Positions 1,237-38,552 of a DNA stretch of 38,552 nucleotides are shown here, one piece after another; position 1 is the stretch's first letter, and each line of letters opens with the position of its first letter. The notes beneath the pieces were generated by a model. That model worked only from the letters and a program-made list of their open reading frames with translations, searched no databases and was not told the DNA's origin. Origin of the DNA: Bacteroidaceae bacterium (lineage in GTDB: Bacteria > Bacteroidota > Bacteroidia > Bacteroidales > Bacteroidaceae). The translations under genes were made by a program, and so were the position numbers. The stretch is from positions 1-38,552 of the forward strand of contig JAFXTO010000062.1 in NCBI GenBank assembly GCA_017535725.1. Direction: 5' to 3'.

Positions 1237-1260
1237 AAAGTGAAATATATACTAACTAAT

Positions 1261-2460: not shown

Positions 2461-2471
2461 TGATGAGACTG

Positions 2472-2479: not shown

Positions 2480-2501
2480 CAATATCTAACAATAATAAAT
2501 C

Positions 2502-3821: not shown

Positions 3822-3882
3822 AAGTCACATCATTATTTTAAAAGAAAGAACGGAAATAAGCACCAGAAGAAAGTAAACTGTT

Positions 3883-4518
3883 ATGAAACAACTATTTATA
3901 CTTGTAGCTTTTGGAGGTATGTTGGCTCTGGCAGCCCCAGCCCAGCGACCGTAACAAATCACGATTAGTGCCTATGACACGGGCAAGCAGTTCGACGGCA
4001 TTGGAGCCGTGAATGGCGGCGGTGCAACCTCTGTGTTGCTGCGTGCCTACCCAGAGCCGCAGCGTTCCCAAATCCTCGACTTCGTCTTCCGCCCGAAGTT
4101 CGGAGCCAGCGTGAGCACCATGCTCGTGGAAATTCCCGGCGACGGAAACTCCACTCAGGGCTCCATGCCCACCCATGCCCACTACCGTGGCGATACCAAC
4201 TTCGAACGGGGCTATATGTGGTGGGTGATGACCGAAGCCAAGCGACGCAATCCGCAGTTAGCCATCGACGCCACAGGATGGAGTGCACCTGCCTGGGTGG
4301 GGAATATCTGGTCGCAGGAGATGGCGGACTACATCATCGACATCCGCATAGGGCACGCCGCACGCCTGCTGGTGGACTCCGCACAGACGGTGGCGGAGAT
4401 CTGCTACGACTGCGGCTTCAACACCCTCTCGAACTTCAACCGCCTCTTCCGTCGCCGCAAGGGATGCTCCCCCAAGGAGTTCCGCGAGGACTACCAGAAG
4501 AAGAAAGTGTTCATCTGA
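3883..4518 (+). pseudogene. Broken chimera: GH59 N-terminus joined to an AraC-regulator C-terminus
   Basis: The reading frame starts at ATG 3883 with a signal peptide (MKQLFILVAFGGMLALA...), hits an in-frame TAA at 3952-3954, and then continues open to 4518. After the stop it encodes the first part of a GH59 galactocerebrosidase-like enzyme (FDGIGAVNGGGATSVLLRAY onward), nearly identical to the intact gene at 10495. At about 4332 it switches, still in frame, to a typical AraC-family helix-turn-helix end (IRIGHAARLLVD...ICYDCGFNTLSNFNRLF...SPKEFRED). The GH59 catalytic residues and the regulator's sensor part are both missing. I read this as a recombination deletion that fused two genes. A function as a truncated regulator fragment cannot be excluded but is unlikely. 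Confidence 0.85.
4001..4332 (+). repeat. High-identity repeat, copy 1 (GH59 segment)
   Basis: By hand count this segment differs from 10607-10938 at about 12 of 332 positions, and about 11 of those differences are silent. Identity falls off upstream of about 4000 and stops abruptly at 4332, the join to the AraC part. Confidence 0.9.
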
Positions 4519-4574
4519 TGCAGCCTGTGTCGGCAATGGTTAATATTGTGTCACGATAGAATAGGAATAACCCG

Positions 4575-4582
4575 TACCTTTG
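4575..4582 (+). promoter_or_regulatory. Probable -7 promoter element (TACCTTTG)
   Basis: TACCTTTG matches TAnnTTTG in the spacer between the chimera and the large surface-protein gene. The nearest TTG upstream (4546-4548) is 26 bp away, longer than the usual 19-21, so the -33 box is weak. The element lies about 50 bp before the likely start at 4633. Confidence 0.5.
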
Positions 4583-4632
4583 CAGCGAAAATCGTTCAAA
4601 ATTTAGGTTTAACCATTCAAATTATGTGTCAA

Positions 4633-7600: not shown

Positions 7601-7902
7601 CCTTCATCGTCAACGAGAATGCTTTCCAGCCCACCACCGAGGAGGACGCCAAGGTCTGGGCTAACCACGCCTACATCGTGCCGGGTGCCGGAGCTGCAGA
7701 TGCAGACGCCACCTACGACCTCGTGCTCGAAGTGGGAGGCGACCTGACGGGAGTGCAGCAGACGCTGAGCAACGTCGCCCGGAGCGGAAACGTCTACAAT
7801 GCTGCCGGACAGCTCGTCCGTAGGGGGGCCACCCTCAACGAGGTGCAGCAGCTGCCCAGCGGCCTCTACATCCTCAACGGGGTGAAGGTGCTGGTGAAAT
7901 AA
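4633..7902 (+). CDS. Large multidomain surface protein with F5/8-type C domain and FIVAR-like bundles
   Basis: About 1089 residues from ATG 4633 (MKRIFTCLLMVLMTLGANAK signal peptide); ATG 4624 is an alternative. No catalytic domain is recognised. The N-terminal region (~20-140) looks like a beta-sandwich. A FIVAR-like helical segment follows (~172-222), then a beta-rich region that could be a trefoil (~226-390), an F5/8 type C (discoidin-like) domain (~423-586), a second helical segment (~593-706) and a second trefoil-like region (~713-880). The last ~40 residues (VYNAAGQLV...GLYILNGVKVLVK) form a short type IX-like sorting tail. I infer a carbohydrate-binding surface protein of the mannan locus. 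It has its own -7 element and appears more GC-rich than the genes before it. Domain calls other than F5/8 C are tentative. Confidence 0.85.
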   Translation: MKRIFTCLLMVLMTLGANAKVDVDFSSRFMEGTNVIDAASAWGWHSVDLRSYDVMDYEYLYIRYESTCSFNLILQNPDWQNAYQVSCNANETEAYIKLTPHAYTGYSCVVIQNHAEGQITVEKIYFCTEDEFFNPAPEDHDEAVENLVDIYLRYQQYEDGLPLGDDYGYYSEELYNEFVKALDVVNNLGDKAMQEMTTEALNAAAQAIVDAYRTLMASKKQYLPENGYYRFVCARQFYTEDEETGETAFFQKALYSGNDGINQWKTLDAADPTFLWTLQRQEDGTYLMENPANHLYFSSPEKCSEAQKFIAFDPVLRTDGAYEFSWPMSTEEDVVVFNFRFSDQPANNQMYIHCNWHDGGKGWGGPMTTWFNTNTDSGASEWFIQPVSDEEAQAILNDNSFVHDFVVMLADAKEKAILADDMIKTKLITEASQLSSPYSQNDLGSRDGGDLSSGVLIDGDLGSFWHSHWEGGNVEAGVHYLQVELPEAVGGSLEFDIARRQNIASDHVTKWSVYGSDSPDGGKDSYEWIADLETPYTDYSEQPSVMFTIEDGKEFEYLRFYAEATTSGRGYFHVSELQLYALSANPTNQAATMGKVFTDLQAAIAAADLVDQNAVSRADYEALKAAYDPFVALFVDPTPLREAIAGAENIVRVAEVGSNPCQWSQQAIDGWNQLMADARAYDQAGKYTSTQSEDYISKLAAANFSAAANQLNPNKYYAIRFASEEKYEEQGWSTGNVAESDFGPLFDTYLAPAGESDLVPTPAGDVRQGSFMFFTDYKNADIAFRFVPAGDNRYIIQHKASGLFVQVYGYDSWTGLTLNPTVFTIEAVGNGECTLHGADYAGNDLSYLHAQLRDHRLVTWHDHNVGSNSGLIIEEVADVEGEPAQPLADFRTGELTTMCYPVAVAPSAGSLYTVAGTYDKDGKVFVALNKVQKAAAGQPVVYIAEGTYDAENVEARTTATLNVGTDIAAQPLNDGALKGVYADTDLTEAAFIVNENAFQPTTEEDAKVWANHAYIVPGAGAADADATYDLVLEVGGDLTGVQQTLSNVARSGNVYNAAGQLVRRGATLNEVQQLPSGLYILNGVKVLVK

Positions 7903-8066
7903 GTGCTCATTTGAACCTGTAAAAATCCTTACGATATGATGCAGCAGATGCATAATCGTCATCGTCCAGTACGGCGAGTCCTCTCAGGAGGACTTGCCCT
8001 GCTGTTTCCCATTCCCGTAATTACTACTTCAGAGACACAAAATAACTAACGCATAAAACCTGTAGA
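7903..8066 (+). other. Spacer with a small hairpin
   Basis: The 164-bp gap holds a perfect inverted repeat GTCCTC-TCAG-GAGGAC (7978-7993) with no T-run after it. A 37-codon frame (7936-8049) runs through it, but its peptide has no recognisable features. The hairpin could pause or attenuate transcription into the esterase gene; this is speculative. Confidence 0.35.
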
Positions 8067-9146
8067 ATGATGAAACGACTACTCCTATCCGTCTTTTTCC
8101 TGGCAGCAGTTCTTGGCGCACATGCTCAGTTGCGCAGGAACCTGACACCTGCCGACACACTCAAGTCCATAGAACAACTCAGCGATGGCTCCACAGCCTT
8201 CCGCATCTACGCTCCCAAAGCCGAAGCCGTGGCGCTGGGAGGTGACCTGGCTGGCCTGAAAGCTCAGTTCCAAAAGGATGCCGACGGCATCTGGACGGCT
8301 GTCGTCCCCAAAGTTCCTACGGATGCCTATCGCTACCATTTCATCGTCGATGGCGTGCGCGTCATCGACCCCCGCTACCGCTTCTATTCTGAAATCACTC
8401 CGGTGGCAAAGATCACCAACGGCGAGGACATCTTCTGGGCACAGCGCGATGTGCCGCATGGACCTGTTTCGCAAATCTTCTATAAGTCCACCACCACGGG
8501 CAGCACGCGCAGCCTGCATGTATGGCAGCCCGCCGGCAAGGCTGCCAAGGAGCCGCTGCCTGTGCTCTATCTCATTCATGGCGCCGGAGACAACGACGGC
8601 TCCTGGTCCTCTATCGGATGTGCCGGGAATATTCTTGATAATCTCTATAGCGAGGGAAAGATTGCTCCGATGATTGTGGTGATGCCCCATGGAGGCATGG
8701 ACACGGAGAAATTCGTGGATGAGCTCGTCGTAGATATCATGCCGCGCGTGGAAGAGCAGTTCCACATCAAGACGGATGCAGACAACACCGCCCTGGCAGG
8801 ACTCTCGATGGGAGGACTCGAAACCCTCAACACATTCATGGCGCACCCAGAGATGTTCGGATACATCAACGTGATGAGTTCCGGCTGGTTCCGCAGCAAC
8901 GATGCCGACCGGCAGGCCAAGACCGAGCGCCTGCGCCAGATTGCTCCCACCTTGAACAAGACCGCGCACGTGCTGCGTTTCACGATGGGAGGCAGGGAGG
9001 ACTTCGCACACGCCAGCTGTCAGCAGACGCTGAAATGCTTTGACGAGGCTGGAGTGAAATACGAGTACAGCGAAACACCTGGAGGCCACAGCTGGCACGT
9101 CTGGCACTATGACCTGCGCGACTTCGCTCCACGTCTTTTCAAGTAA
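8067..9146 (+). CDS. CE1-like secreted esterase with N-terminal E-set/CBM48-like domain
   Basis: A 359-residue alpha/beta-hydrolase of the esterase D/CE1 type. After a signal peptide (MMKRLLLSVFFLAAVLGAHAQ) comes an immunoglobulin-like domain (~35-115: FRIYAPKAEAVALGGD...YRYHFIVDG), as in many Bacteroidetes feruloyl/acetyl esterases. The catalytic domain shows LYLIHGAGDNDGSW, the nucleophile S247 in GLSMGG and a C-terminal His in GGHSWHVW. The ATG at 8070 is an equal start. The family removes feruloyl or acetyl groups from hemicellulose. In this locus deacetylation of mannan is the natural guess, but ferulate or another ester cannot be excluded. No sorting tail is present. Confidence 0.88.
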   Translation: MMKRLLLSVFFLAAVLGAHAQLRRNLTPADTLKSIEQLSDGSTAFRIYAPKAEAVALGGDLAGLKAQFQKDADGIWTAVVPKVPTDAYRYHFIVDGVRVIDPRYRFYSEITPVAKITNGEDIFWAQRDVPHGPVSQIFYKSTTTGSTRSLHVWQPAGKAAKEPLPVLYLIHGAGDNDGSWSSIGCAGNILDNLYSEGKIAPMIVVMPHGGMDTEKFVDELVVDIMPRVEEQFHIKTDADNTALAGLSMGGLETLNTFMAHPEMFGYINVMSSGWFRSNDADRQAKTERLRQIAPTLNKTAHVLRFTMGGREDFAHASCQQTLKCFDEAGVKYEYSETPGGHSWHVWHYDLRDFAPRLFK

Positions 9147-9205
9147 ACGGAGGATGGAGCAGGTACGAATTTTGGGAAATATTCAAGCAAAAAGACCATA
9201 CACAC

Positions 9206-10402
9206 ATGAGACAGAGACGAATCCTACACTTGCTGTTGCTGCTGCTCTGCGGCAGCGCATCGGCTCAGGACACTCCCCAGCGCTCTGCTGAGGCAGAGGA
9301 GCTGCTGCAGTGCTTCCATCAGATCTTTGGAGAGAAGATACTCTCCGGCGCCACGGCCAACGTGAACTGGAACCTCAACGAAGCCAAGTGGGTACACCAG
9401 CACACGGGCAAGTGGCCTGCCGTGAACTGCTTCGACTACCTGCACCATCCCTTCGCCTCCAAGGGCGGGTGGATTGACTACACCAACGTGACCGAGCTCG
9501 TCAACTGGCACAAGGCTGGCGGAGTCATCGAGATCATGTGGCACTGGAACGTGCCTGCCAACAAGAGCGGGCAGTACTCGTTCTACTGGGGGACGGAGGA
9601 CGACAAGACGACTTTTGATGTCAAGAAAATATTTGACCCTACGTCGAGCGAATATAAGCTAATGATGAAAGATATCAACACCATCGGAGGCTACCTGAAG
9701 CTGCTGAAGACCCGCAAGATTCCCGTGCTATGGCGTCCGCTGCACGAGGCGGGAGGTATGTGGTTCTGGTGGGGGCGCGACCCTGAAGCCTGCAATGAGC
9801 TCTGGAAGGTCATGTACCGCCGGTTCCAGGAACTCGGACTGGACAACCTCATCTGGGTGTGGACGCAGTCGGCGGCATGGGGAAAACCGTACAGCGACGG
9901 CTACCGCTGGTACCCCGGCGACGAGTATGTGGATATCGTCAGCATCGATGTCTACAACAACACCAATGCCTCCAACATCTACAGCACCTGCTTCAACTTC
10001 CTGAAGAAAGCCTCGCCCACCAAGCTGGTGGCTCTGACCGAGTGCGGAAATCTCTCCAAGATCAGTCAGCAGTGGAAGGCGCGCGCGCGCTGGCTGTACT
10101 TCGCGCCCTGGTATGACTATGGTCGCACCAGCAATCCCAACAGCTCGGAATTCAAGAGCAGGGACCACGGCAGCTGCAATGCAGACTGGTGGGACGATGC
10201 CTTCGCCCAGGACTATGTCCTCTCTCGCGAGGACTTCAAGGCGTTGCGACAGGAACTCGTCGGAATCGGCGATCTGCAGGACGACAATTTCGTGACTCTC
10301 AAGCCTGAAGACGATAAGTCCTTCGACCTGAACGGACGCCCCTGGCAGCCGGGACAGAAAGGACTGGTCATCCGTGGAGGTAAGAAATATTTTGCCAGAT
10401 AG
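9206..10402 (+). CDS. GH26 endo-beta-1,4-mannanase, type b paralogue
   Basis: 398 residues, clearly paralogous to the GH26 at 1261. The acid/base is E181 (RPLHEAGGMWFWWG) and the nucleophile E279 (ALTECGN). The signal peptide is a short leucine run (MRQRRILHLLLLLLCGSASAQ), quite unlike its paralogue's. The C-terminus (SFDLNGRP...GLVIRGGKKYFAR) is a short type IX-like tail. It sits 59 bp after the esterase and 92 bp before GH59. Both b-type GH26 genes precede a GH59 gene, with GH5 in between in the first block, which supports block duplication. Confidence 0.93.
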   Translation: MRQRRILHLLLLLLCGSASAQDTPQRSAEAEELLQCFHQIFGEKILSGATANVNWNLNEAKWVHQHTGKWPAVNCFDYLHHPFASKGGWIDYTNVTELVNWHKAGGVIEIMWHWNVPANKSGQYSFYWGTEDDKTTFDVKKIFDPTSSEYKLMMKDINTIGGYLKLLKTRKIPVLWRPLHEAGGMWFWWGRDPEACNELWKVMYRRFQELGLDNLIWVWTQSAAWGKPYSDGYRWYPGDEYVDIVSIDVYNNTNASNIYSTCFNFLKKASPTKLVALTECGNLSKISQQWKARARWLYFAPWYDYGRTSNPNSSEFKSRDHGSCNADWWDDAFAQDYVLSREDFKALRQELVGIGDLQDDNFVTLKPEDDKSFDLNGRPWQPGQKGLVIRGGKKYFAR

Positions 10403-10494
10403 AATCCGCCGCTCAAATAGCATGTCTGGAATGACAACTGCCTCTGAAGTGAACCTAAGATAACATTTGAACTCTATTTAATTAAGGAATACAC

Positions 10495-12531
10495 ATGCAA
10501 AAGTTCTCCCTCATTTCTTTCCTCATGGCTGCCGCCCTTGCCACGAGTGTACAAGCCCAACCCCTGCAAGTCAGTGCCACAGCCTCCGGCAAGGCATTCG
10601 ACGGTATTGGAGCCGTCAACGGCGGCGGTGCAACCTCTGTGTTGCTGCGTGCCTACCCAGAGCCGCAACGTTCCCAAATCCTCGACTTCGTCTTCCGCCC
10701 GAAGTTCGGAGCCAGCGTGAGCACCATGCTCGTGGAAATTCCCGGCGACGGAAACTCCACGCAGGGTTCCATGCCCACCCATGCCCACTACCGTGGCGAC
10801 GCCAACTTCGAGCGAGGCTATATGTGGTGGGTGATGACCGAAGCCAAGCGACGCAATCCGCAATTAGCCATCGACGCCACAGGATGGAGCGCACCTGCTT
10901 GGGTGGGGAATATCTGGTCGCAGGAGATGGCGGACTACTACGTCGACTGGCTCACAGGACTGCGCGAGCACTATGGACTGGAACTCGATGCGCTGGGCTG
11001 CCACAACGAGAAGGGCTACAACTACGACTTCGCCAAACGTCTACGCCGCACGATGAACGAGCGCGGATTCAGGAACGTGAAGCTGCACGGCTTCGACAAC
11101 TGGGGCAAGAACAAGATGGACTTCCTCGCAGAGATGCAGCGCGATCCTGAACTGGCTGCAGCCATCGATGCCGTCAGCGCCCACACCTTCAGCGAGATTC
11201 AGCTCACGCCAGAGCAGCGTGCTGCTGCCGAGGCGCTGGGAAAACCCATCTGGAACAGCGAGGACCACGTCTACCGCAAGGGCTTCGACGTGCTCATCAC
11301 CATCGTTAAGTGCTTCAACGAGAACTATATCATCAGCGGAGCCACACGCGTCATCAACTGGTATGACATTGCTGCCGTCTATCCCTTGGAACCCTATGGC
11401 GTAGACCCTGCCATGATGATTGCCCACGAGCCCTGGAGCGGACACTACACGGTGCGCGAGGCACTTTGGGGTTATGCCCACTACGGTCAGTTCACGCAGT
11501 TAGGATGGCGATATGTCGACTCCGCTTGTCGGAAACTGTCTGGCGGAGGCTCCGTCATCACCATGCGCGATCCTTCAACAGGCGACTACAGCATCATCAT
11601 AGAGACCAAGGAGGCCAAGGCTCCACAGACCCTGAAGTTCGAGGTCGCCAAGGGACTCAGCCGCGCTGACCTCTGCGTCTGGCGCAGCATGCCCGAGCAG
11701 CTGTTCGTGCAGCAGCAGGACATCCATCCCCGTCGCGGTCGTTTCGAAATCACACTCGAGCCTGGGGCTGTCTACTCGCTTTCCACCACGCGCGGACAGC
11801 AGAAGGGTTCCTTCGCCAACGTCCCCGCTTCGCAACCCTTCCCCTTCCCCTATGCTGATGACTTCGAGAAGTACCAGCCAGCCTCTGCTTATGGCTACCT
11901 GCCCAACTATCTCGCGGACATCATCGGTGCCTTCGAACTCACGGAACGCCCTGACCACCAGGGACAGTGCGTGAGGCAGGTGGTGGGCGACCACACCCTC
12001 AGCTGGGCACCCGAATGGCATCACTACACCATCGTGGGCGACTCTGCCTGGCGCGACTATGAGGTCAGTGCCGATGTCTACCTGAACCCACAGGACGAAG
12101 CGGCTGTGATGGGACGTGTCATCGACGTGGGCTCCGGCTACGGCGTGTGGGTCAAGGGCTACTACCTGAAACTCGACGACCAGGGACGCGCCAGCCTCGT
12201 CATGAGCTGCGGCAAGCGCAACAAGCAGGAACTCATCGGCGATGCCGAGCAGCAGGCACTCATCCGTGCACGCAAAGACATGGAAGTGGGTGGGGAATTC
12301 GTGCTCGACAGTGCACAGGTGGAGGGCATCCGCCCCTGCAAGTGGCACAATCTCCGACTGCGCATGCAGGGTTCCACACTCACTGGTTTTGTCGACGGGC
12401 AACAAGTGGTCAGCACCTCCTCAGACCGCTACCATCGCGGTATGGCTGGTTTGATGGCTCCGCTACAGCAGCGTCGCGTCTGCACTCCCTACTTCGACAA
12501 CCTCAAGATCACCCCTCTCAGTGGGCAGTAA
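10495..12531 (+). CDS. GH59 galactocerebrosidase-family enzyme, full length
   Basis: 678 residues with signal peptide (MQKFSLISFLMAAALATSVQAQ). It follows the animal galactosylceramidase (GALC) family along its whole length: FDGIGAVNGGGATS and YPEPQRSQILDF near the start, E172 in CHNEKGYN (acid/base, GALC E182), E256 in IWNSEDHV (nucleophile, GALC E258), EPWSGHY, then the beta-sandwich and C-terminal lectin-like domain ending near YFDNLKI. Known family activity is hydrolysis of beta-galactosides such as galactosylceramide. In a mannan locus with GH27 and GH26 a role on beta-galactosyl side chains is likely (inference). No sorting tail, so probably periplasmic. A damaged second copy lies at 3883. 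Confidence 0.92.
   Translation: MQKFSLISFLMAAALATSVQAQPLQVSATASGKAFDGIGAVNGGGATSVLLRAYPEPQRSQILDFVFRPKFGASVSTMLVEIPGDGNSTQGSMPTHAHYRGDANFERGYMWWVMTEAKRRNPQLAIDATGWSAPAWVGNIWSQEMADYYVDWLTGLREHYGLELDALGCHNEKGYNYDFAKRLRRTMNERGFRNVKLHGFDNWGKNKMDFLAEMQRDPELAAAIDAVSAHTFSEIQLTPEQRAAAEALGKPIWNSEDHVYRKGFDVLITIVKCFNENYIISGATRVINWYDIAAVYPLEPYGVDPAMMIAHEPWSGHYTVREALWGYAHYGQFTQLGWRYVDSACRKLSGGGSVITMRDPSTGDYSIIIETKEAKAPQTLKFEVAKGLSRADLCVWRSMPEQLFVQQQDIHPRRGRFEITLEPGAVYSLSTTRGQQKGSFANVPASQPFPFPYADDFEKYQPASAYGYLPNYLADIIGAFELTERPDHQGQCVRQVVGDHTLSWAPEWHHYTIVGDSAWRDYEVSADVYLNPQDEAAVMGRVIDVGSGYGVWVKGYYLKLDDQGRASLVMSCGKRNKQELIGDAEQQALIRARKDMEVGGEFVLDSAQVEGIRPCKWHNLRLRMQGSTLTGFVDGQQVVSTSSDRYHRGMAGLMAPLQQRRVCTPYFDNLKITPLSGQ
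10607..10938 (+). repeat. High-identity repeat, copy 2 (inside intact GH59)
   Basis: Partner of 4001-4332 within the GH59 coding region, in direct orientation about 6.6 kb away. Recombination between the two would delete the surface-protein, esterase and GH26 genes between them. Confidence 0.9.
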
Positions 12532-12585
12532 CTTAACTGATAAGGCGTAACGATACTTTTTTACCTCCTCAAGAACTCCTTCGAT

Positions 12586-14871
12586 ATGAAACGCTTGCTA
12601 CTGCTATCTGCGTTGCTGCAGGCTCTCTTCATGCCAAGAACCTTCGCTCAGGGAGAAGTCTCCCCGCAGCCCATCGACCGCGAGGCCACAGGTCCTACGC
12701 GGCAGCTCTACCGCTATCTCCGCGACAAGGTGTGGGGCAGGCAGGTGCTGGCCGGTTGTCAGACTCGTTGGGACTACAACACCACGGACGCCGACGTCAT
12801 CCGCGAGCGTGCAGGGAAGTATCCTGCCGTGAATATTTTTGACTTCCAGCACTTCCGCCAGCGCAACCTCAACTACCTGGCTCCGACGGCTAAGCAGTGG
12901 AACGACGCTGGCGGCATCGTGGGCTTCATCTGGCACTGGAGCGTGCCTGTGGATCCGGAACTGACGCCGAAGGACGGCTTCGCCTTTTACACTCCCACGG
13001 GTGCAGAGGGACGTCGCCCGGGCACCCTCTTCTCTGCTCGCAGAGCGGTACAGGAGGGCACGCTGGAGCAGCGCATCATCAACGAGAACCTCGACACCAT
13101 CGTGCGCTATCTCCTCCACTACCAGGAGCAGGGAATCCCCATCCTCTGGCGACCCTTTCACGAGGCAGCAGGCAACTCCAACCGCGGCGGAAAGGCATGG
13201 TTCTGGTGGGGTAATGATGGTGCCGAAGCCTTCAAAAAACTCTACCTCTACGCACAGCGCTACCTCATGCAGCGAGGCGTGCACAACCTCATCTACATCT
13301 GGACCTCGGAACTGGATGACGACGACTGGTACCCCGGCGACGAGTACGTGGACATCGTGGCTCGCGACCAGTACCGCGTGGCTTCGGACCACGGCTCCTT
13401 CAAGCAGCAGTTCGACCTCCTGCGCAGCAAGTATCCCACGAAGATGCTGGCGCTGGCGGAGTGCGACGTGGTTCCCTCGGCAGCTGCCATGGAGCAGGAC
13501 GAGGCACGTTGGCTCTTCGTGGCGCCGTGGACTACACCTTTCGTCTTCAGCCGTCAGAACGACGATGCCTTCTGGAAGCAGTTCCTGGGCGAGAAGCTCA
13601 TCCTGACGCGCGACGAGGTCAACCGCGCAGGCACCTGCAGGCTGGACATTGACCACGCCAACGGCATCTACGCCAAGGGCGAGCGTGCCGTGGTCACCTG
13701 CCATGCAGAGGAAGTGCCGCTGGACTCCGTGCGCGTGCGTGTTTACCTCAACAATATGCTCAACCGCGAGTTCAGCCTGATGCCTGCCAGCCACACCTTC
13801 ACAGCGCTGGAACTGGCGCTGGACAGCACGTGTGCCGTCAGCGTGGAGCTGCAGGAACGCCATGGCAAACCCGCCTCCATCGGCTATGTCGTGGCTCCGG
13901 AGGGCTTCCGTGCGGGCTACGAGGAGCCGGCAGACCTGATGCAGTACTGGGCAGACCAGAAGCGACAGCTGAAGGCGCTGCCCATGCAGGTGAAGACCAC
14001 GCCGCTGGCTGTTCCCGCTCAGTACCAAGGAAAGTACGTCTGCCAGGACCTGGAAATCAACTGCCTGGGACCTGCACCCGTGCGTGGCTACATGGCCAAA
14101 CCCGTGGGTGCAAAGAAGAAGTCGCTGCCCATCGTCATCCTCTGCCGCGCTGCAGGCGTCAGTGGCTACTGGTGCCGCTGCCAGGTGGGCGAGTGTGTGG
14201 GTAATGCTGCCCTGGGCGGAGGAGCCCTCAGCCTGGACCTGAACGCCCACGGTATGCTCAACGGGCAGACGGACGACTACTACCGCATGCTGGAGAACGG
14301 TCTCCTGCACAACTACTGGGAGCACAACGCTGCCGACCGCGAGACCTATTATTTCCGCGGCATGTACCTGCGCCTGCTGCGTGCCATCGAGTACATGGCG
14401 AGCCAGCCCGAGTGGGACGGCAAGCGCATCATCGTCATCGGCGAGAGCCAGGGCGGAGGACAGGCCATGGCAGCTGCCGGGCTGGACGAGCGCGTCTCTG
14501 CCGTCTGCGTCCACGTGCCTGCCATGCAGGATCTGGGCGGAGCGCGTGCGGGCCGACGCAGCGGCTGGCCTCAGCCCATCGAGAACCACCCGCAGCTGGA
14601 TGCCTCCATGCTGGATGCCACGCTGCCTTACTTCGACGGAGCCCTGCTCATCCGCCACTCGCGCGCAGAGATTTTCTGCGAGATGGGGCTCATCGACACC
14701 ACCTGTCCGCCTGCCAGCGTATGGGCATCACTCAACGCCGCTCCGGGCAAGAAGACTGTCAACTGTGTGCCCTATCGCACCCACGCCTGGCCATCGAACG
14801 AAGAGCATCCCTCCTGGCGAAATGATTACCTCCAGCCCCGTCTGGACTTCATTGAAAACTACCTGAAATAA
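12586..14871 (+). CDS. GH26-CE7 fusion: mannanase joined to acetyl esterase
   Basis: 761 residues with signal peptide (MKRLLLLSALLQALFMPRTFAQ). Residues ~35-345 are a GH26 domain with acid/base E193 (WRPFHEAAGNSNRGGKAWFWWG) and nucleophile E292 (LALAECD). A beta-sandwich linker (~350-450) follows, then a CE7 acetyl esterase domain (~455-761). The CE7 triad is visible: S621 in GESQGGG, D704 in GLIDTTCPP and H733 in YRTHAWP. CE7 enzymes remove acetyl groups from xylo-oligosaccharides and similar sugars. Paired with GH26 it should deacetylate and cut acetylated glucomannan fragments. No C-terminal sorting tail, which suggests the periplasm. The GH26 part is a third, divergent type. Confidence 0.9.
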   Translation: MKRLLLLSALLQALFMPRTFAQGEVSPQPIDREATGPTRQLYRYLRDKVWGRQVLAGCQTRWDYNTTDADVIRERAGKYPAVNIFDFQHFRQRNLNYLAPTAKQWNDAGGIVGFIWHWSVPVDPELTPKDGFAFYTPTGAEGRRPGTLFSARRAVQEGTLEQRIINENLDTIVRYLLHYQEQGIPILWRPFHEAAGNSNRGGKAWFWWGNDGAEAFKKLYLYAQRYLMQRGVHNLIYIWTSELDDDDWYPGDEYVDIVARDQYRVASDHGSFKQQFDLLRSKYPTKMLALAECDVVPSAAAMEQDEARWLFVAPWTTPFVFSRQNDDAFWKQFLGEKLILTRDEVNRAGTCRLDIDHANGIYAKGERAVVTCHAEEVPLDSVRVRVYLNNMLNREFSLMPASHTFTALELALDSTCAVSVELQERHGKPASIGYVVAPEGFRAGYEEPADLMQYWADQKRQLKALPMQVKTTPLAVPAQYQGKYVCQDLEINCLGPAPVRGYMAKPVGAKKKSLPIVILCRAAGVSGYWCRCQVGECVGNAALGGGALSLDLNAHGMLNGQTDDYYRMLENGLLHNYWEHNAADRETYYFRGMYLRLLRAIEYMASQPEWDGKRIIVIGESQGGGQAMAAAGLDERVSAVCVHVPAMQDLGGARAGRRSGWPQPIENHPQLDASMLDATLPYFDGALLIRHSRAEIFCEMGLIDTTCPPASVWASLNAAPGKKTVNCVPYRTHAWPSNEEHPSWRNDYLQPRLDFIENYLK

Positions 14872-14975
14872 GTTCTTAAGAAAGATTATACCTTATGAAA
14901 CATTAACGATTCATGCACCTGCTGATATTCTTACACCAAGAACAAGAAGAACAACAATAAAAATCATCTTCAAAA

Positions 14976-17213
14976 ATGAAAAAGATTCTATGTATCCTTC
15001 TCTGCGTCGTTGCCTGCCAAGGCCTGATGGCGCAGAAATGGGAAAAGATCGGAGACCGACCACAAATGGGATGGAATACCTGGAACAAGTTTGCCGGAAA
15101 CATCAACGAGGAACTCGTGCGGGGAATCGCCGACGCCCTCGTGGAGACTGGCATGCGCGATGCCGGCTACACCTATATCAACCTCGACGACTGCTGGCAC
15201 GGACAACGCGATGCCGAAGGATTCATCCAGGCTGATCCTAAGCGCTTTCCAAGCGGTATCAAGGCACTGGCGGACTACGTCCATGCCAAAGGCCTGAAGC
15301 TGGGTATCTACAGCGACTGCGGCACGGAAACGTGTGCTGGCAAACCCGGAAGCCTCGGACACGAGTATCAGGATGCACTCCAATATGCCCGCTGGGAGGT
15401 GGACTACCTGAAGGAGGACTGGTGCAACACTACGAATATCAACGCCCGCGGAGCCTACAAACTGATGAGTGATGCCCTGCGTGCTTCCGGACGACCCATC
15501 TTCCTGAGTATGTGCGAGTGGGGCAGCAACAAGCCTTGGGAGTGGGCTGCAGAAATCGGTCACAGCTGGCGCATAGGTCCTGACATCTGGTGCAACTTCG
15601 ATTCCACACGTGTGCATCCACAGGGATTCACGGACATCGGTGTCATGCAGTGCATTCGTCTCTGCGAGCCGCTGCGTAAGTACGCCGGTCCCGGTCATTG
15701 GAACGACCCCGATATGCTGGAGGTGGGTAATGGCATGACGGTGAACGAAGACCGTGCCCACTTCGCCATGTGGTGCATGATGGCGTCGCCACTCATCCTG
15801 GGCAACGACCTCCGTGCCATGAGCGAGGAGACCAAGGCAATCCTCATGAACCGAGAGATGATAGCCGTAGACCAAGACGAGCTGGGAGTGCAGGGACTGC
15901 GCTATGCTACCGAGCAGGGGCTGGAATTCTGGTTCAAACCCCTGAAAGGCGGAGACTGGGCGTTCACCATCCTCAACCCCACCAAGGCGCCCGTCAGCTA
16001 TGACCTCAACTGGCAGCACTTCAACCTCATCGACATGGAGGTGAGTCGTCTGGGCACTTATTTCGACCAGGTGACCTATGCCGTTCGCAACCTCTGGACA
16101 CACGCCAACGAGGGTCGCACGCTGACCACCGACAAGGTGTGGCGTACGCTGACGGTACCTGCTCGCGATGTCATTTCCTATCGCCTCTCGCCCGTTGCCA
16201 AGAATACTGCCACCACGGCTCAGCTGCTGCGTCAACGCCTGCAACGACTTCAGAAGCGTGGCATCATGTTCGGACATCAGGACGATCCCTTTTATGGCTT
16301 AGGCTGGAGCTATGAAGCGGGTCGCAGCGATGTGCGCGACCTCGTGGGTGACTATCCGGCAGTAATGGGCTTCGAGCTCGGAGGCATCGAGTTGGGCGAC
16401 GAGAAGAATCTCGATAGCGTGCCTTTCAACCTGATGCGTCAGGAGATGATTGCCCAGTCCCGAAGAGGCGGCATCGTCACCATCTCCTGGCATCCCCGCA
16501 ATCCTCTGACGGGAGGCACGGCATGGGTCAACAACGAGGAGCGCAGCAAGAACACAGTCGCTGCCGTGCTGTCTGGAGGCAAGGTGCATGGAGTGTTCCA
16601 GATTTGGCTGGGACGTCTCACCAGCTTCCTGGCATCGCTGAAGGACGAGCAGGGACATCAGATTCCCATCATCTTCCGCCCCTGGCACGAGAACAGCGGA
16701 GCGTGGTTCTGGTGGGGACGCGGGCTGTGCTCCAGCGAGGAGTACCGTGCCCTCTGGAATATGACGCAGGACTTCGTAGTAAAGGCCCTGCCCTATAACA
16801 TTCTCTGGAGCTGGAGTCCCAACTATGGTTTCGAACCGGACGAACTCGATACCTATCCTGGCGATGAACGCGTGGACATCATCGGACTCGATGCCTACCA
16901 GCAACGGGGAGGCGAGGAGGCATTCATCAGCCAGCTGAACAAGGACCTCACTACGCTCTGCAACATGGCAAAGAAGAGCGGAAGACTTGTGGCTCTCACA
17001 GAATGCGGATTCCTGAACATCCCGGATCCCACGTGGTGGACGCGTGTGCTGAAGCCGCAGATTCAGAAATTCCCCATCAGCTACTTCCTCGTCTGGCGCA
17101 ACGCCGACCGCAGGCAGTACTTCGCTCCGGCGAAGGACACCAAGGATGCAGAAGACTTCTGCAAGATGGTGAAAGACAAGAGAATACTCATGCTGAAAGA
17201 CATTAGCAAGTAA
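14976..17213 (+). CDS. GH27-GH26 fusion: alpha-galactosidase joined to mannanase
   Basis: 745 residues. The leader [20 protein letters not shown] could be cut by signal peptidase I after MAQ, or could be a lipoprotein signal at VVAC. Residues ~21-405 are GH27 alpha-galactosidase ([12 protein letters not shown], nucleophile D148 in YLKEDWCN, acid/base D203 in [22 protein letters not shown]). Residues ~412-745 are GH26 type a with acid/base E572 ([14 protein letters not shown]) and nucleophile E676 (ALTECG). There is almost no linker. One protein can thus remove alpha-1,6-galactose and cut the uncovered backbone. The GH26 half is homologous to the stand-alone enzyme at 133. The GH130 gene follows at once. 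Confidence 0.93.
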
Positions 17214-17238
17214 GTTAAAAGTGAAAAACAAGCATCAC

Positions 17239-21858: not shown

Positions 21859-21863
21859 TGTTA

Positions 21864-21970
21864 GTTGGTGAGTTATTTGAGTTGGTGAGTTTGGGAGTTG
21901 ATGAGTTTTTTGAGTTGGTGAGTTTTTGAAGTTGATGAGTTTGGGAGTTGGTGAGTTTGGGAGTTAAAGG
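21864..21970 (-). repeat. Degenerate octamer array before the M60 gene
   Basis: On the + strand the stretch divides into about 12 consecutive units starting GTT (mainly GTTGGTGA, GTTTGGGA, GTTGATGA), nine of 8 bp and three of 9 bp, followed by GTTAAAGG. In the coding (-) direction it ends 5 nt before the M60 start codon. Confidence 0.85.
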
Positions 21971-30215: not shown

Positions 30216-30282
30216 AGATAAATTTGCGTAAATGGGGACAGAAAAGGGATTATTTCAATCTCGATTCCTTCTTTTTATGGTG

Positions 30283-30313
30283 CAAAAGTAGGAGAATTTG
30301 CCGAAAACTCAAA
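30283..30313 (-). promoter_or_regulatory. Consensus Bacteroidetes promoter for the lipoprotein-addAB operon
   Basis: On the - strand TTTG (30313-30310) is followed after 19 bp by TACTTTTG (30290-30283), matching the primary sigma consensus TTTG-N19/21-TAnnTTTG. It is 68 bp upstream of the lipoprotein start. Confidence 0.72.
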
Positions 30314-30374
30314 GCCAAAGACAAAATAGTTGCTTTTTTTTCTGTTTTTCTTCGCATTTATGGCAAAAAAACTA

Positions 30375-30382
30375 TACCTTTG
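30375..30382 (+). promoter_or_regulatory. -7 element (TACCTTTG) just before the HU/SPOR gene
   Basis: TACCTTTG lies only 6 bp before the ATG at 30389. TTCG at 30351-30354, with a 20-bp spacer, is a one-mismatch -33 box. With the usual start-site distance the transcript would begin at or next to the start codon. The region is divergent from the - strand promoter at 30283. Confidence 0.55.
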
Positions 30383-30388
30383 CCCCCG

Positions 30389-31552
30389 ATGAACGAACTT
30401 TCACGACATATTGAACGCCTTCTTTTGAGCCACGATTGCGTGGTTGTTCCCCAGTTTGGCGGTTTCGTCACAATGGGCACCAGTGCCCAGCGGGAGGAAG
30501 CCGAACAATTGTTCTTTCCACCCATCCGCATCGTGCGTTTCAATCCGGATCTCACGGAAGACGATGGACTGCTAACGTCAACCGTACGGGAGCTTCACCA
30601 TTGCTCTACGAGCGAGGCCAAGCGTCACATCCTGCGCCTGGTGCTCAACTTGCGCCAGCAGTTGCTTTCCGATGGCCAGATGGACTTCGGCTCCATTGGC
30701 GTATTTCAGCAAGACGAGGACGGTCGCGTCAGTTTCTCACCTTGTCAGGCTGGTGTTACCACCCCCTGGCTCTTCGGACTCGATGCGTTTCCTATGTCTA
30801 AATTGACTGTTGCTCAGCGCAATGAGCATCGCAAGGATCCACTTCGCGGTGGCGCATCTCGCGACCAGAGGGATTCCCAGACCATCACGCTCCACATCAG
30901 TAAGCGCGGTCTGAAGAACACCATAGCCGCAGCCGCCATCATCGTGCTCTGCGCCCTCTTCTCGTCGCCATTCAACGAATCCTCGCAGACCTCTAATCAA
31001 GCCTCCATCCTGCCGCCCGAATCCGCTGTAGTGGCCACCCCTCCTTCCACCCCCTCCTCCAGCAACTCCCCCTCCCTCCCCTCCTCTTCCTCCAGCTCCC
31101 TCTCCACCCCTTCCTCCAGCTCCCCCTCCACCTCTTCACCTTCCTCCAGCTCCCTCTCCACCCCTTCCTCCAGCTCCCCCTCCACCCCCTCCGCTCTTGC
31201 GCCATCGGCCCTCCATAATATCCCTGTTCTCGGCGGTTCGTCCGTCGAGCCCTCCTCCTCCTCCACCCCAACCACCGCTCCAGCCACCCCCCAAGCCTCC
31301 CCAGCACCCGAGAGCACCCCCGCTGGCAATTTCTGCATCGTGCTCTCCAGCCATGTGAGCATGAAGAATGCCAACAACTTTGTAAAAACGCTGAGAGAGA
31401 GGGGCTTGACCAAAGCACGAGTGTTTAATAATGGTAGGGTAAACCGCGTCATTATCGACGGTTTCGACACGGAGGCCGAGGCCGTAGCTAAAAACGTGGA
31501 ACTGCACCACGCCAACCGCGAATATGCCTCCAGCTGGGTCATGGCCTTATGA
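30389..31552 (+). CDS. HU-CCDC81/SPOR membrane protein
   Basis: 387 residues. The open frame begins earlier, but ATG 30389 gives the family N-terminus MNELSRHIERLLLSHDCVVVPQ. Two HU-like modules (~1-60 and ~60-115) form the HU-CCDC81 region. One membrane segment (~178-196, IAAAAIIVLCALF) follows, then a Ser/Pro-rich linker (~204-312) and a C-terminal SPOR domain (~314-387). SPOR domains bind denuded peptidoglycan; HU folds often bind DNA. The topology suggests a cytoplasmic HU part and a periplasmic SPOR part. The linker is encoded by tandem repeats and includes an in-frame copy of a hairpin repeat. The stop overlaps the next start (ATGA). Confidence 0.88.
   Translation: MNELSRHIERLLLSHDCVVVPQFGGFVTMGTSAQREEAEQLFFPPIRIVRFNPDLTEDDGLLTSTVRELHHCSTSEAKRHILRLVLNLRQQLLSDGQMDFGSIGVFQQDEDGRVSFSPCQAGVTTPWLFGLDAFPMSKLTVAQRNEHRKDPLRGGASRDQRDSQTITLHISKRGLKNTIAAAAIIVLCALFSSPFNESSQTSNQASILPPESAVVATPPSTPSSSNSPSLPSSSSSSLSTPSSSSPSTSSPSSSSLSTPSSSSPSTPSALAPSALHNIPVLGGSSVEPSSSSTPTTAPATPQASPAPESTPAGNFCIVLSSHVSMKNANNFVKTLRERGLTKARVFNNGRVNRVIIDGFDTEAEAVAKNVELHHANREYASSWVMAL
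31087..31194 (+). repeat. 54-bp tandem repeat in the Ser/Pro linker
   Basis: Two copies of a 54-bp unit (31087-31140 and 31141-31194) each contain two sub-repeats starting TTCCTCCAGCTCCC. The period is 18 codons, so copy-number changes keep the reading frame. Confidence 0.85.
31221..31254 (+). repeat. 34-nt hairpin repeat, copy inside the HU/SPOR coding region
   Basis: It matches the reverse complement of 21976-22009 with two differences. One falls in the stem and leaves a G-U pair, so the RNA hairpin is kept. In frame it encodes part of PVLGGSSVEPS in the linker. Confidence 0.8.
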
Positions 31553-32895: not shown

Positions 32896-33636
32896 ATGGA
32901 ATTAGTTCCTGCAATAGATATCATCGACGGTCGCCTGGTGCGCCTGACCAAGGGCGACTATGCGACACAGAAAGTGTATGCCGAAGACCCCGTGGAGGTG
33001 GCTCAGCAGATGGAGGCAATGGGGTTCAGGCGGTTGCATGTCGTAGACCTCGATGGAGCACGCTCCAAGCACGTAGTAAACCTCGATGTGCTGCGCGGTA
33101 TCACGACGAAGACTCGTCTCGTGGTAGACTTCGGCGGAGGCGTCAAGAGTGAAGACGACCTGCGCAAGGTGTTGGATGCGGGCGCACAGATGGTCACAGT
33201 AGGAAGCATCGCCGCTACCAACCGCGAGCTGGTGCTTCAGTGGCTGGAAGAATTCGGAGCAGAACATATAGTACTGGGCGCTGATGTTCGCAACGGACTC
33301 ATCAGCATCAACGGATGGAAAGAGGAGAGTGCGCTACAACTGATGCCCTTCCTCGAAGCATATCTCACAGCAGGCATCCGCCACGTCCTATGCACAGAAA
33401 TCAGCAAGGACGGCATGTTGCAAGGACCCGCCACCCCACTCTACCGCGACATCATGCAGGCCCACCCCGAATGCCGCCTCATCGCTTCGGGAGGAATCAG
33501 CAGCATCGAAGATATCAGACAGCTCGACGAAGCCGGAGTCCCCGCAGTCGTATTCGGAAAAGCAATCTACGAAGGAAGAATAGACCTGAAGGAGCTCATC
33601 CAAGAATTCCCGCAAGATCTCGAAACATCGAAATAA
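32896..33636 (+). CDS. hisA: Phosphoribosylformimino-AICAR-phosphate isomerase
   Basis: 246 residues, TIM-barrel isomerase of histidine biosynthesis (ProFAR to PRFAR). The N-terminal Asp is in VPAIDIIDGRLVRL and the second catalytic Asp in LCTEISKDGMLQGP. LVVDFGGGVKSEDD and ASGGISS are phosphate-binding loops. Its last codons (ETSK and stop) already fall within the octamer array that continues into the spacer to hisF. Confidence 0.96.
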   Translation: MELVPAIDIIDGRLVRLTKGDYATQKVYAEDPVEVAQQMEAMGFRRLHVVDLDGARSKHVVNLDVLRGITTKTRLVVDFGGGVKSEDDLRKVLDAGAQMVTVGSIAATNRELVLQWLEEFGAEHIVLGADVRNGLISINGWKEESALQLMPFLEAYLTAGIRHVLCTEISKDGMLQGPATPLYRDIMQAHPECRLIASGGISSIEDIRQLDEAGVPAVVFGKAIYEGRIDLKELIQEFPQDLETSK

Positions 33637-33732
33637 CGAAACCCCGAAATCTCGAAATAACGATATAACGATATAACGAAATAACGAAATCCCGATTTAT
33701 CGAAATCCCGATATCCCGAATTATCGAAAAAA
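33621..33732 (+). repeat. 14-unit octamer array (CGANNNNN) between hisA and hisF
   Basis: Fourteen units of exactly 8 bp follow each other without a gap, each starting CGA (for example CGAAATAA, CGATATAA, CGAAATCC). Only the last five positions vary. It begins in the hisA 3' end and stops 10 nt before the hisF GTG. Confidence 0.92.
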
Positions 33733-33742
33733 CTCAAAACAA

Positions 33743-35195: not shown

Positions 35196-35989
35196 AATAC
35201 AAGGAAGTTGATATCCAGCGAGACGAACAAGTGGTGCTCTACAATGTGAACCTACAGGTTCAAGAGGGCGAGTTCGTCTACCTGACAGGCGTCGTAGGCA
35301 GTGGCAAGTCTTCGCTGCTGAAAACCATCTACGGCGAACTCGACATTCCCACAGGCACCGCCGAAGTGCTGGGCTACAACCTGCGGAGCATCAAGCGCCG
35401 CAAGGTGCCCTGTCTGCGTCGCGAACTGGGCATCGTCTTTCAGGACTTCCGCCTGCTACTCGACTTCAATGTGCGTCAGAACCTGGACTTTGTGCTGAGA
35501 GCCACAGGCTGGAAGGATCGAACCCAACGCGCCAACCGCATCACGGAGGTACTGACCATCGTGGGACTGGCCGACAAGCAGGAAGCTATGCCCTACCAGC
35601 TCTCGGGCGGAGAACAACAAAGGGTGTGCATCGCACGAGCCATCCTCAACCGACCACGGCTCATCCTGGCCGACGAGGCCACGGGCAATCAGGACGCAGA
35701 GTCCGGACGACAGACCCTGCGACTCCTCCACGACCTCTCCAAGCAGGGAACAGCGGTCATCATGGCCACCCACAACACCCAGCTGCCAAAGGAATTTCCT
35801 GGAACGGTCTATGAATGCCGCGACCATCGTCTATTCCGCATCGAGGAGAATCCACAAGACTTGAAAACCGTGTCCGAAGCAGACTCACTGGATGATATCC
35901 CCGTGGCTACCGTAGCCAACAAAGCTACTGTAGAAACGGCAGACTACGAAGAAATAAATAATAACAACACACAACATATCGAAGAATGA
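35186..35989 (+). CDS. ftsE: Cell-division ABC ATPase FtsE
   Basis: 267 residues, ABC-transporter ATPase. Walker A is [11 protein letters not shown]-loop FQDFRLL, signature LSGGEQQR, Walker [13 protein letters not shown] and H-loop ATHN. Length to ~225 and motif style fit FtsE, which with FtsX controls septal peptidoglycan hydrolysis. The last ~40 residues form an extra acidic/Asn-rich tail ([13 protein letters not shown]). No ftsX is adjacent. The stop overlaps lysC by four bases, an arrangement common in Bacteroidales. Confidence 0.92.
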
Positions 35990-37329
35990 AAGTGCTTAAA
36001 TTCGGCGGCACGAGCGTAGGCTCTGCCCAGCGCATGCAGGATGTATGCAAGCTCATCACCAGCGACGGTGAGGCCAAGATCGTGGTCCTCTCGGCCATGA
36101 GCGGAACCACCAACACCCTTGTGGAGATTGCCGACTATCTCTACAAGAAGAATCCCGAGGGGGCCAACAATGTCATCAACCGGCTCGAACAAAGGTATCT
36201 GGCACATATCGAACAGCTATACACCACCGACGAGTGGCGACAGAAGACGGAAGCCTTCCTACAAGAAGAGTTCAACTACCTGCGCTCCTTCACCAAGATT
36301 CTCTTCACCTCCTTCGAGGAAAAGGTCATTCTTGCACAGGGCGAAATCATGTCCACGAACATGCTGAACAACTACCTGCAGGAACAGGGCGTGAAGACCA
36401 TTCTGCTCTCCGCACTCGACATGATTCGCACAGACAAGAACGCCGAACCGGACGTCAACTACATCCGCGAGAAGACACTCATGCAGCTCGAAGCCAACCC
36501 CGGCTACGAAATATATATCACCCAAGGATACATCTGCCGCAACGCCTATGGCGAGATTGACAACTTGCTGCGCGGCGGATCGGACTACACGGCATGTCTC
36601 ATCGGCGCTGCCATCAACGCTGAGGAAATCCAGATTTGGACGGACATCGATGGCATGCACAACAACGACCCGCGCATCGTGGAGGGCACAGAACCCGTGC
36701 GCCAGTTGTACTTCGAGGAAGCTGCCGAGCTCGCATACTTCGGAGCCAAGATTCTGCACCCCACCTGCATACAGCCCGCCAAGTTCGCGGGAGTGCCCGT
36801 GAGACTGCTCAACACCATGGACCCCAAGACACCTGGAACAATCATCAACAACCGCATGCACCGGGGAACCATCAAGGCGGTGGCAGCCAAGGACAATATC
36901 ATCTGCATCGGCATACAGAGCTCACGCATGTTGCTGGCCCACGGATTCCTGCGCAAAGTCTTTGAGATTTTCGAGAGCTACAAGACCAGCATCGATATGA
37001 TTGCCACGTCGGAGGTGGGTGTCAGCGTGACCATCGACAACCGCTCGCACCTCAACGAAATAACAGCCGAACTGAAGAAGTACGGCACCGTGACCGTAGA
37101 AGAAAACATGTGCATCGTATGCGTCGTCGGAGACCTGTCCACACAGAACATCGGATTCGAGACACTGGCCACCGACGCGTTGAAGCAGATTCCCGTGCGT
37201 ATGATCAGCTACGGAGGTTCGCCACACAACATCTCGTTCGTCATCGCAGAAGCCGACAAGAAGCGAACCCTGCAAGCACTGCAGTCCACCCTCTTCACCT
37301 ACAACGGCCACGTGAGGCGTCCATCCTAA
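35986..37329 (+). CDS. lysC: Aspartate kinase
   Basis: 447 residues, monofunctional aspartokinase, first step of lysine/threonine/methionine/DAP synthesis. [12 protein letters not shown], the catalytic-domain motif LLRGGSDYTACLIGAA and WTDIDGMHNNDPRI are present. Two ACT-type regulatory domains follow (~300-447), including MIATSEVGVSVTID, so feedback control by lysine is likely. It is coupled to ftsE by ATGA and followed 15 bp later by lysA. Confidence 0.96.
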   Translation: MKVLKFGGTSVGSAQRMQDVCKLITSDGEAKIVVLSAMSGTTNTLVEIADYLYKKNPEGANNVINRLEQRYLAHIEQLYTTDEWRQKTEAFLQEEFNYLRSFTKILFTSFEEKVILAQGEIMSTNMLNNYLQEQGVKTILLSALDMIRTDKNAEPDVNYIREKTLMQLEANPGYEIYITQGYICRNAYGEIDNLLRGGSDYTACLIGAAINAEEIQIWTDIDGMHNNDPRIVEGTEPVRQLYFEEAAELAYFGAKILHPTCIQPAKFAGVPVRLLNTMDPKTPGTIINNRMHRGTIKAVAAKDNIICIGIQSSRMLLAHGFLRKVFEIFESYKTSIDMIATSEVGVSVTIDNRSHLNEITAELKKYGTVTVEENMCIVCVVGDLSTQNIGFETLATDALKQIPVRMISYGGSPHNISFVIAEADKKRTLQALQSTLFTYNGHVRRPS

Positions 37330-37344
37330 TTTCTCCACAAGAAC

Positions 37345-38552
37345 ATGGCACACACAGATATCCACACAAACATGAAAACACCATTCTACCTCTACGACAC
37401 CGCACTGCTGGCTCGTACACTCAATGCCATACAGGAAGAAACCAGAGGACACGACAACTTCCACGTTCACTATGCCATCAAGGCAAACGCCAATCCTACC
37501 ATACTCCGCCAGATAGCTGCCGAAGGACTGGGCGCAGACTGCGTCAGTGGCGGTGAAATAGAAGCCGCAATGGCTGCCGGATTCCCCGCCCCGAAGATTG
37601 TATTCGCAGGCGTCGGAAAGGCAGACTGGGAAATCCGGCTGGCACTGGAGAAGGAAATCGGCATGTTTAATGTCGAGAGCATCGAGGAACTGCAGGTCAT
37701 CCATGACATCGCCACCGATATGAACAAACGGGCGCGCGTGAGCTTCAGAATCAACCCGGACGTTGGGGCACACACTCATGCACACATCACCACAGGACGT
37801 GCCGAGAACAAATTCGGCATCGACAAGGAGGATATGGTCAAGGTGATTCGGATGGCACAGCAGATGCCGCTCATCGACTTCACAGGGCTGCACTTCCACA
37901 TCGGTTCGCAGTTGCTGGTGATGGATGACTTCGAAGCCCTCTGCCTGCGCATCAACGAGCTGCAGCAGGAGCTGGAGCGCGAAGGCATCTATGCACTAAA
38001 TATCAACGTAGGTGGCGGCTTGGGCATTGACTACGAGCAACCCGACGAGCACCCCATCCCAGACTTCAAGGCCTACTTCAACGTCTTCAAGCGCGGATTA
38101 CAACTGCGCGACGGCCAGCAGCTTCACTTCGAACTCGGTCGAGCCGTGGTCGGGCAGATGGGCTCCCTCATCACCCAAGTCCTCTATGTGAAGCACGGCA
38201 AGCAGAAGCAGTTCGTCATCCTCGATGCCGGCTTCACGGAGCTCATCCGCCCCGCCTTCTACGGCGCCCACCACCACATCCAGAACCTCACCGCCCAAGG
38301 CCTCTCCCTCATCCCCTCCCTCCCCTCCCTCCCCTCTCAAAACACTTCCCCCTCTACCTCCCCCGCCTCCGGAAACACCTCCCCCGCGACCTCCCTCCCC
38401 ACTTCCCCCTCTATCTCCCCCACCTCCGAAAACACCTCCCCCGCGACCTCCCTCCCCACTTCCCCCTCTATCTCCCCCACCTCCGGAAACACCTGCCCCG
38501 CGGCCTCCCTCCCCACTTCCCCCTCTATCTCCCCCACCTCCGAAAACACCTC
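37345..38552 (+). CDS. lysA: Diaminopimelate decarboxylase, 5' part, with internal repeat insertion
   Basis: PLP-dependent enzyme making lysine from meso-DAP; the gene runs off the window. The PLP lysine is K46 in VHYAIKANANP, HIGSQ and the Gly-rich NVGGGLGIDY are present, and FELGRAVVGQMG follows. ATG 37372 is an alternative start. After RPAFYGAHHHIQNLTA, where the family normally soon reaches YDVVGPICESSD, the frame instead enters a Ser/Pro/Thr-rich tandem repeat to the window end. The reading frame is kept throughout. Whether the rest of the enzyme follows cannot be seen. Confidence 0.92.
   Translation, partial: MAHTDIHTNMKTPFYLYDTALLARTLNAIQEETRGHDNFHVHYAIKANANPTILRQIAAEGLGADCVSGGEIEAAMAAGFPAPKIVFAGVGKADWEIRLALEKEIGMFNVESIEELQVIHDIATDMNKRARVSFRINPDVGAHTHAHITTGRAENKFGIDKEDMVKVIRMAQQMPLIDFTGLHFHIGSQLLVMDDFEALCLRINELQQELEREGIYALNINVGGGLGIDYEQPDEHPIPDFKAYFNVFKRGLQLRDGQQLHFELGRAVVGQMGSLITQVLYVKHGKQKQFVILDAGFTELIRPAFYGAHHHIQNLTAQGLSLIPSLPSLPSQNTSPSTSPASGNTSPATSLPTSPSISPTSENTSPATSLPTSPSISPTSGNTCPAASLPTSPSISPTSENT
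38344..38552 (+). repeat. 57-bp minisatellite inside lysA
   Basis: Units begin at 38344, 38401, 38458 and 38515 (the last cut by the window end). Each starts ACTTCCCCCTCTA and spans 19 codons, encoding a T-S-P-S-rich 19-mer. Units differ by few bases. A CCCTCC-rich lead-in starts near 38304. Confidence 0.93.

Follow-up and report, generated by a model that had tools for sequence, protein, structure and literature searches.

Why should the gene for a conserved biosynthetic enzyme run into a tandem array of serine, proline and threonine codons at a point where a short loop is expected? The question is raised by the window, i.e. the whole 38,552-bp stretch of DNA that we analysed, which is the entire contig C72 of a draft Bacteroidaceae genome (G000; 2.9 Mb, 72 contigs, 76% complete). 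C72 stops inside an array in lysA, and both the total copy number and the C-terminus of LysA lie beyond its end. In our opinion, the LysA loop just before GPICESSD is probably a tolerant site where repeats are taken up and multiplied under selection for the reading frame.

The array in lysA

The features at the end of the window are as follows.

37345..38552, + strand: lysA (diaminopimelate decarboxylase), open at the contig end (ORF list, Pfam, TIGR01048)
38312-38336, + strand: 9-bp tandem repeat TCCCCTCCC, 2.8 copies, 100% (TRF), a polypyrimidine lead-in to the 57-bp array
38343..38552, + strand: 57-bp (19-codon) minisatellite of 3.7 copies or more, cut off where the contig ends (TRF, unit comparison)
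38318..38535, - strand (template strand): four G-quadruplex-type motifs (pattern scan; motif match only)

The lysA frame is open from the ATG at 37345 to the window end, 402 codons without a stop. Within it TRF reports 3.7 copies of a 57-bp unit at 38343-38552 with 94% matches and 0% indels, and the score of 378 is the highest of the 16 TRF rows in the window. The units begin at 38343, 38400, 38457 and 38514, the fourth spanning 39 bp, and each full unit adds 19 Ser/Pro/Thr-rich codons in frame. Head-to-tail units of tens of base pairs in an ORF, with a period that is a multiple of three, make this an intragenic minisatellite. The first-pass annotation, which had described an in-frame minisatellite of this unit length with at least 3.7 copies, is thus confirmed by TRF and the open frame; only its start at 38304 was placed slightly early. 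Since all five of the 19 codons that vary between units vary in the encoded amino acid, we see no sign of selection on the sequence of the unit, five sites being too few for proof.

Even truncated, LysA scores 330.4 bits against NCBIfam TIGR01048 (lysA), above the equivalog cut-off of 297.9, and it matches PF02784 and the first 50 of the 95 positions of PF00278. The ORF directly upstream (35986..37329, + strand) is, as we judge from its translation, presumably an aspartate kinase. The coding strand of 38304-38552 is 80% pyrimidine, and four of the five G-quadruplex-type motifs found on both strands of the window (runs of at least three G, spacers of 1-7) sit at the lysA array.

Several known kinds of repeat do not describe the array. 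It is not a phase-variable contingency locus, because 57 is a multiple of three and the array lies inside the gene, so that neither the frame nor any promoter spacing would shift. We also reject a dispersed origin of the unit, as within G000 it was found only in C72 and the 138 other genomes of the genus gave only weak C-rich matches, in two of them. Nor is the array a coding palindrome of the RPE type (see below): a 94-nt stretch of it folds to 0 kcal/mol as DNA, and it is not dispersed.

One loop, many fillings

The genus set comprises 139 genomes, 138 of which match a LysA query, the sole match in some being a weak distant paralogue. We aligned 131 rows, leaving out three fragments (L217-L219) and reading G087 and G162 a second time. 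Compared with the short-loop reference G021, internal insertions of three or more residues are confined to reference positions 316-321, where they reach up to 47 residues (the figure for G000 is approximate, since its LysA is truncated); outside these positions the largest insertion is 2 residues. Measured from RPAxY to GPICES, the loop has 21-68 residues in complete lysA genes. It has 23 residues or fewer in 94 rows, 24-28 in 16 rows and 29 or more in 21 rows, with the open-ended loop of G000 scored as 96. On a tree of the 131 rows built with the loop left out of the alignment, loops of 29+ residues need 15 changes, at least 10 of them forced by starred branches, the tree being a quick one with many weak branches. 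Among loci from named draft genomes the loop could be measured at 79 of 80, and all 19 Prevotella-titled loci have 21 residues. By their titles, the nearest LysA loci come from drafts of gut bacteria, among them ones from the rumen, that are named as Bacteroidales, Bacteroidaceae or Prevotellaceae.

What fills the loop differs from one relative to another. G018, the relative with the highest LysA identity (81%), has a complete lysA with a 68-residue loop of SPSPVG-type tandem repeats and a normal C-terminus; this repeat was found nowhere else in G018 and in none of the six other genomes searched. The loop of G084 holds a near-perfect palindrome of about 96 bp. In the clade of G036, G099, G097, G128, G122 and G005, the loops consist of GGACAACAGAC-like and other simple sequence (the fillings of G128 and G005 were read from translations). 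There the loop changes between otherwise almost identical enzymes, as seen in three pairs with pN of 0.009-0.025; the LysA of G097 and G128, for instance, differ by a pN of 0.011 and yet have loops of 43 and 29 residues. The first-pass annotation offered, as one of two readings, that the enzyme tolerates a long, variable loop, and these relatives, G018 with its different repeat among them, bear it out with complete genes.

In the PDB structure 2qgh about nine residues span the loop site (PDB alignment). Loops of 29+ residues, the two arrays included, are 34% S/T/P and 16% hydrophobic, against 13% and 35% outside the loop in these proteins. Given this composition and the PDB alignments, the loop is likely to be exposed and disordered.

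The rest of the enzyme appears to be held by selection. Over 295 codons, the G000 LysA core has a pN/pS of 0.17-0.24 when set against four relatives; for three pairs of complete relatives about as far apart the range is 0.17-0.25, and for three much closer pairs it is 0.04-0.06. All values are uncorrected, and a ratio of about 0.2 at the larger distance, where synonymous sites are saturated, is a loose guide. Repeat load and loop length go together only weakly. Long-loop genomes (17 samples) average 28.6 arrays per 100 kb and short-loop genomes (29 samples) 18.1 (one-sided p=0.016), and the rank correlation is weak (Spearman 0.27, p=0.065), both from small samples uncorrected for kinship. The long-loop samples of G002, G029 and G127 are poor in repeats, and four individual 20-kb samples taken from other families in the order range from 0 to 25 arrays per 100 kb.

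Beyond the contig end

The other reading offered earlier was that the gene is split at the array. In that case the array would mark a truncated lysA and the cell would be a lysine auxotroph. Indeed, the C-terminal part was not found in the assembly. YDVVGPICESSD is absent from the window, and neither the CESSD motif nor the remaining sheet domain of LysA was found in the assembly. The C-terminus of G018, used as a query without a positive control, gave no match in it. A PF00278 search of G000, whose control was positive in 12 of 14 genomes, returned only the N-terminal half in C72 and an NspC-like paralogue, which we do not accept as a second lysA. A second PF02784 match was likewise rejected as lysA, since we take its 633-codon frame to encode arginine decarboxylase. 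An intact second copy, which the first-pass annotation had named, together with a stop or frameshift soon after the window, as grounds for giving up its reading, was thus not found, in an assembly that is 76% complete, so that this absence is no proof.

However, C72 ends in the array, and what follows lysA elsewhere is present in G000, where it opens another contig. All 11 relatives inspected have a DedA-like gene downstream of lysA, and in 10 of them a glycosyltransferase-like ORF stands between the two (it is short in L062 and L079 and absent from the ORF listing of L064); we gave both names from reading translations. Contig C59 of G000 opens with a heptamer repeat, followed by glycosyltransferase-like and DedA-like genes. 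Because the genes downstream of lysA in relatives begin C59, an assembly gap between C72 and C59 is suggested, and this gap should contain the remainder of the array and some 60 LysA codons. The start of C59 (L222) has no known RNA family at gathering thresholds. Together with the normal constraint on the 295-codon core and with relatives that retain the C-terminus behind equally strange loops, the gap makes a broken lysA unlikely. We prefer a tolerant loop in a gene that probably continues past the contig end and encodes a working enzyme.

Arrays in other genes of the same genome

Other genes of G000 carry similar arrays. TRF on 368 kb (the window and 20 further stretches) found 100 arrays. 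The period is divisible by three in 20 of 21 arrays inside ORFs of at least 150 codons versus 33 of 79 elsewhere (one-sided p=4.8e-6), an enrichment that is partly circular, because a stop-free array with a period of this kind is likelier to sit in an ORF, and that is favoured by our taking only the longest open frames as genes. On the coding strand, 16 of these 20 arrays are pyrimidine-rich (p=0.012). Carriers include an HU/SPOR-domain protein, a GH31 protein, a GH95 protein, a TonB-plug protein, an APH/RapZ-C protein and CutC. Some arrays resemble ordinary protein repeats, e.g. those of a 517-codon ORF in L224. Three arrays deserve a line each.

31046-31192 in ORF 30224-31552, + strand: C-rich in-frame minisatellite with 54/24/30-bp units, between HU-CCDC81 and SPOR domains
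L237 9992-10990, - strand: CutC with about 80 residues of PLPVGA-like repeats
L356 568-1899 (G000): NspC-like paralogue of LysA with an in-frame array of 2.9 copies of a 24-bp unit

The PLPVGA-like array is absent from all 11 relatives whose CutC was read; a CutC match in G084 stands outside this count. The NspC-like paralogue, so named from resemblance, was compared in 16 sequences including that of G000 (L356, L358-L374; two more were unparsed, and three of 20 genomes had no match). Its loop before GGNSCLSGD has 16-97 residues and a second loop has 13-80. These loops hold tandem repeats in G000, G018 and G123 and, as judged by eye, GC-rich inverted sequence in e.g. G162, G119 and G157. In a global profile alignment the first loop falls opposite that of LysA (probability 96.8, E 4e-10); the array of G000 sits in the second loop, not in one homologous to the LysA loop.

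The same observations bear on the suggestion, made in the first-pass annotation, that changes in copy number could tune the amount or stability of LysA, and on the wider reading that such tuning is adaptive. The loop does vary fast between species, and G-quadruplex-type motifs do lie on the template strand of the array. However, a unit of 57 bp cannot switch the frame on and off, and similar arrays in unrelated proteins of G000 suggest a general process rather than one specific to lysA; we found no support for tuning and consider it very unlikely. That the array is collapsed or chimeric is hardly credible. The contig does end at the array, and the last 49 bases of C72 do recur at 38390-38438, which is two units upstream and is what a branch in a repeat graph would produce. 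However, the units bear distinct in-frame substitutions, and separately assembled related species have repeat-filled loops at the same site in complete genes. The copy number may be wrong even if the array is real.

A palindrome family read in frame

The insert in lysA of G084 differs in kind from the array of the window. It folds to -42.5 kcal/mol as DNA (z -7.5) and has at least 87 matches in its own genome, a lower bound, as 40 of 111 candidates were scored; strands were counted apart, so that the sites number roughly half as many. Elsewhere there are 33 matches in G128, 31 in G036, 9 each in G000 and G018, 6 in G142, 3 in G092 and none in G161. Unlike the 57-bp array, the insert is therefore dispersed in the manner of RPE-type palindromes. 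The lysA locus that carries it (L086) has no known RNA family at gathering thresholds.

We fetched 20 further high-ranking copies (L296-L315). Fifteen lie in open frames, defined as frames of at least 450 nt with no stop in the element or in the 60 nt after it, so that the element lies in frame; this in-gene fraction may be biased upward, because the copies were picked by similarity to the lysA copy. For L305 and L313 the minus-strand frame was taken rather than the longest one. The other five copies are not in such frames, two of them being at contig ends. All but one (L296) of the 15 carriers encode a Pfam family. By Pfam, the carriers are a NAD-dependent DNA ligase, a lipoate ligase, a radical SAM protein, a DEAD-box helicase, a ThiF-family protein, GH43, GH20, HPPK, a queuosine synthesis protein, an AAA/UvrD helicase, QueG, a tRNA_Me_trans family protein, an AIRS-type protein and a frame with a subtilase domain. 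In at least six carriers (L297, L300, L303, L306, L307, L310) the domain match spans the palindrome or splits into two stretches; in the HPPK carrier the palindrome stands ahead of the domain. A scan for palindrome-like peptide motifs, which we devised in part from the fetched copies, gave one match each in the samples of G000, G018 and G084 and none in those of the other five groups. Given so few matches, random stretches are not densely populated by such insertions.

We lean, with less assurance than for the LysA loop itself, towards a genus-wide invasion of conserved enzymes by repeats, in which arrays and RPE-like palindromes would repeatedly enter the same loops (that of LysA and the homologous one of NspC), one palindrome family being in frame in about a dozen enzymes of one species.

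A possible route and its relation to known systems

How could such a loop arise? The host genus appears to be one of rumen Bacteroidaceae/Prevotellaceae whose genomes are rich in repeats, both tandem and palindromic. Short stretches of C-rich or palindromic DNA would enter the permissive LysA loop, and slippage or recombination would then expand it in frame-preserving units, of 57 bp in the window. Selection would purge versions that break the frame or destabilise the protein, and the outcome would be an enzyme that is normal apart from a flexible Ser/Pro/Thr-rich loop. Insertion followed by slippage or recombination is what the pattern of sequences suggests to us; intermediate stages did not turn up.

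Parts of this are already known from other bacteria, as far as the excerpts of the sources describe them: in-frame selfish palindromes in Rickettsia and tandem repeats inside genes elsewhere. Rickettsia palindromic elements (RPE) are repeated DNA in ORFs, metabolic genes included, that is read in frame (PMC10969869). The G084 palindrome resembles them well on both counts, whereas the array of the window is tandem, neither palindromic nor dispersed, and the host here belongs to a rumen Bacteroidaceae/Prevotellaceae lineage. Intragenic tandem repeats (VNTRs) of Legionella pneumophila are tandem units within genes (PMC2639597), as is the lysA array; the difference is that here the repeats sit in a single loop of a conserved biosynthetic enzyme, and that the loop has been refilled with other repeats from species to species, as known from one genome per species. 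BrickBuilt of Porphyromonas gingivalis, a minisatellite MITE with a 23-nt unit and inverted-repeat ends, is likewise a minisatellite in a Bacteroidales genome, but according to the excerpt it is always intergenic (PMC4596501), whereas the lysA array is intragenic with a 57-bp unit. The palindromic amphipathic repeat coding sequence is also a palindromic repeat read as protein, in surface repeat proteins (PMC2996958) and not in loops of housekeeping enzymes. Excerpts of the open-licence literature contained no prior report of in-frame palindromes or tandem repeats in loops of conserved Bacteroidota enzymes, which is no proof of absence.

If our reading is true, the LysA loop is a natural insertion-tolerance experiment, repeated across species in near-identical enzymes that differ mainly there. 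In-frame selfish repeats, which the excerpts report for Rickettsia, would extend to a gut lineage, and protein loops would be a normal habitat of selfish DNA outside Rickettsiales. Such repeats would also be a rapid source of new disordered protein segments. Finally, there would be reason for caution with draft genomes, in that contigs break at such loops and the ends of genes, or marker genes, may be hidden there.

Further observations

Two other parts of the window caught our attention. Further tandem repeats with units of the 8- and 16/17-bp type lie at or near gene ends (21863-21965 and 33617-33733, TRF), and positions 1-17231 hold a run of glycosidase-like ORFs with what seem, from the translations, to be near-duplicate segments (e.g. 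4009-4518 versus 10495-12531).

With regard to the genus as a whole, 18 of its 139 genomes combine contamination of at most 5% with completeness above 90%, versus 20 of the 24 same-order genomes listed from other families. Marker genes that carry insertions, or assemblies broken at repeats, may be part of the reason.
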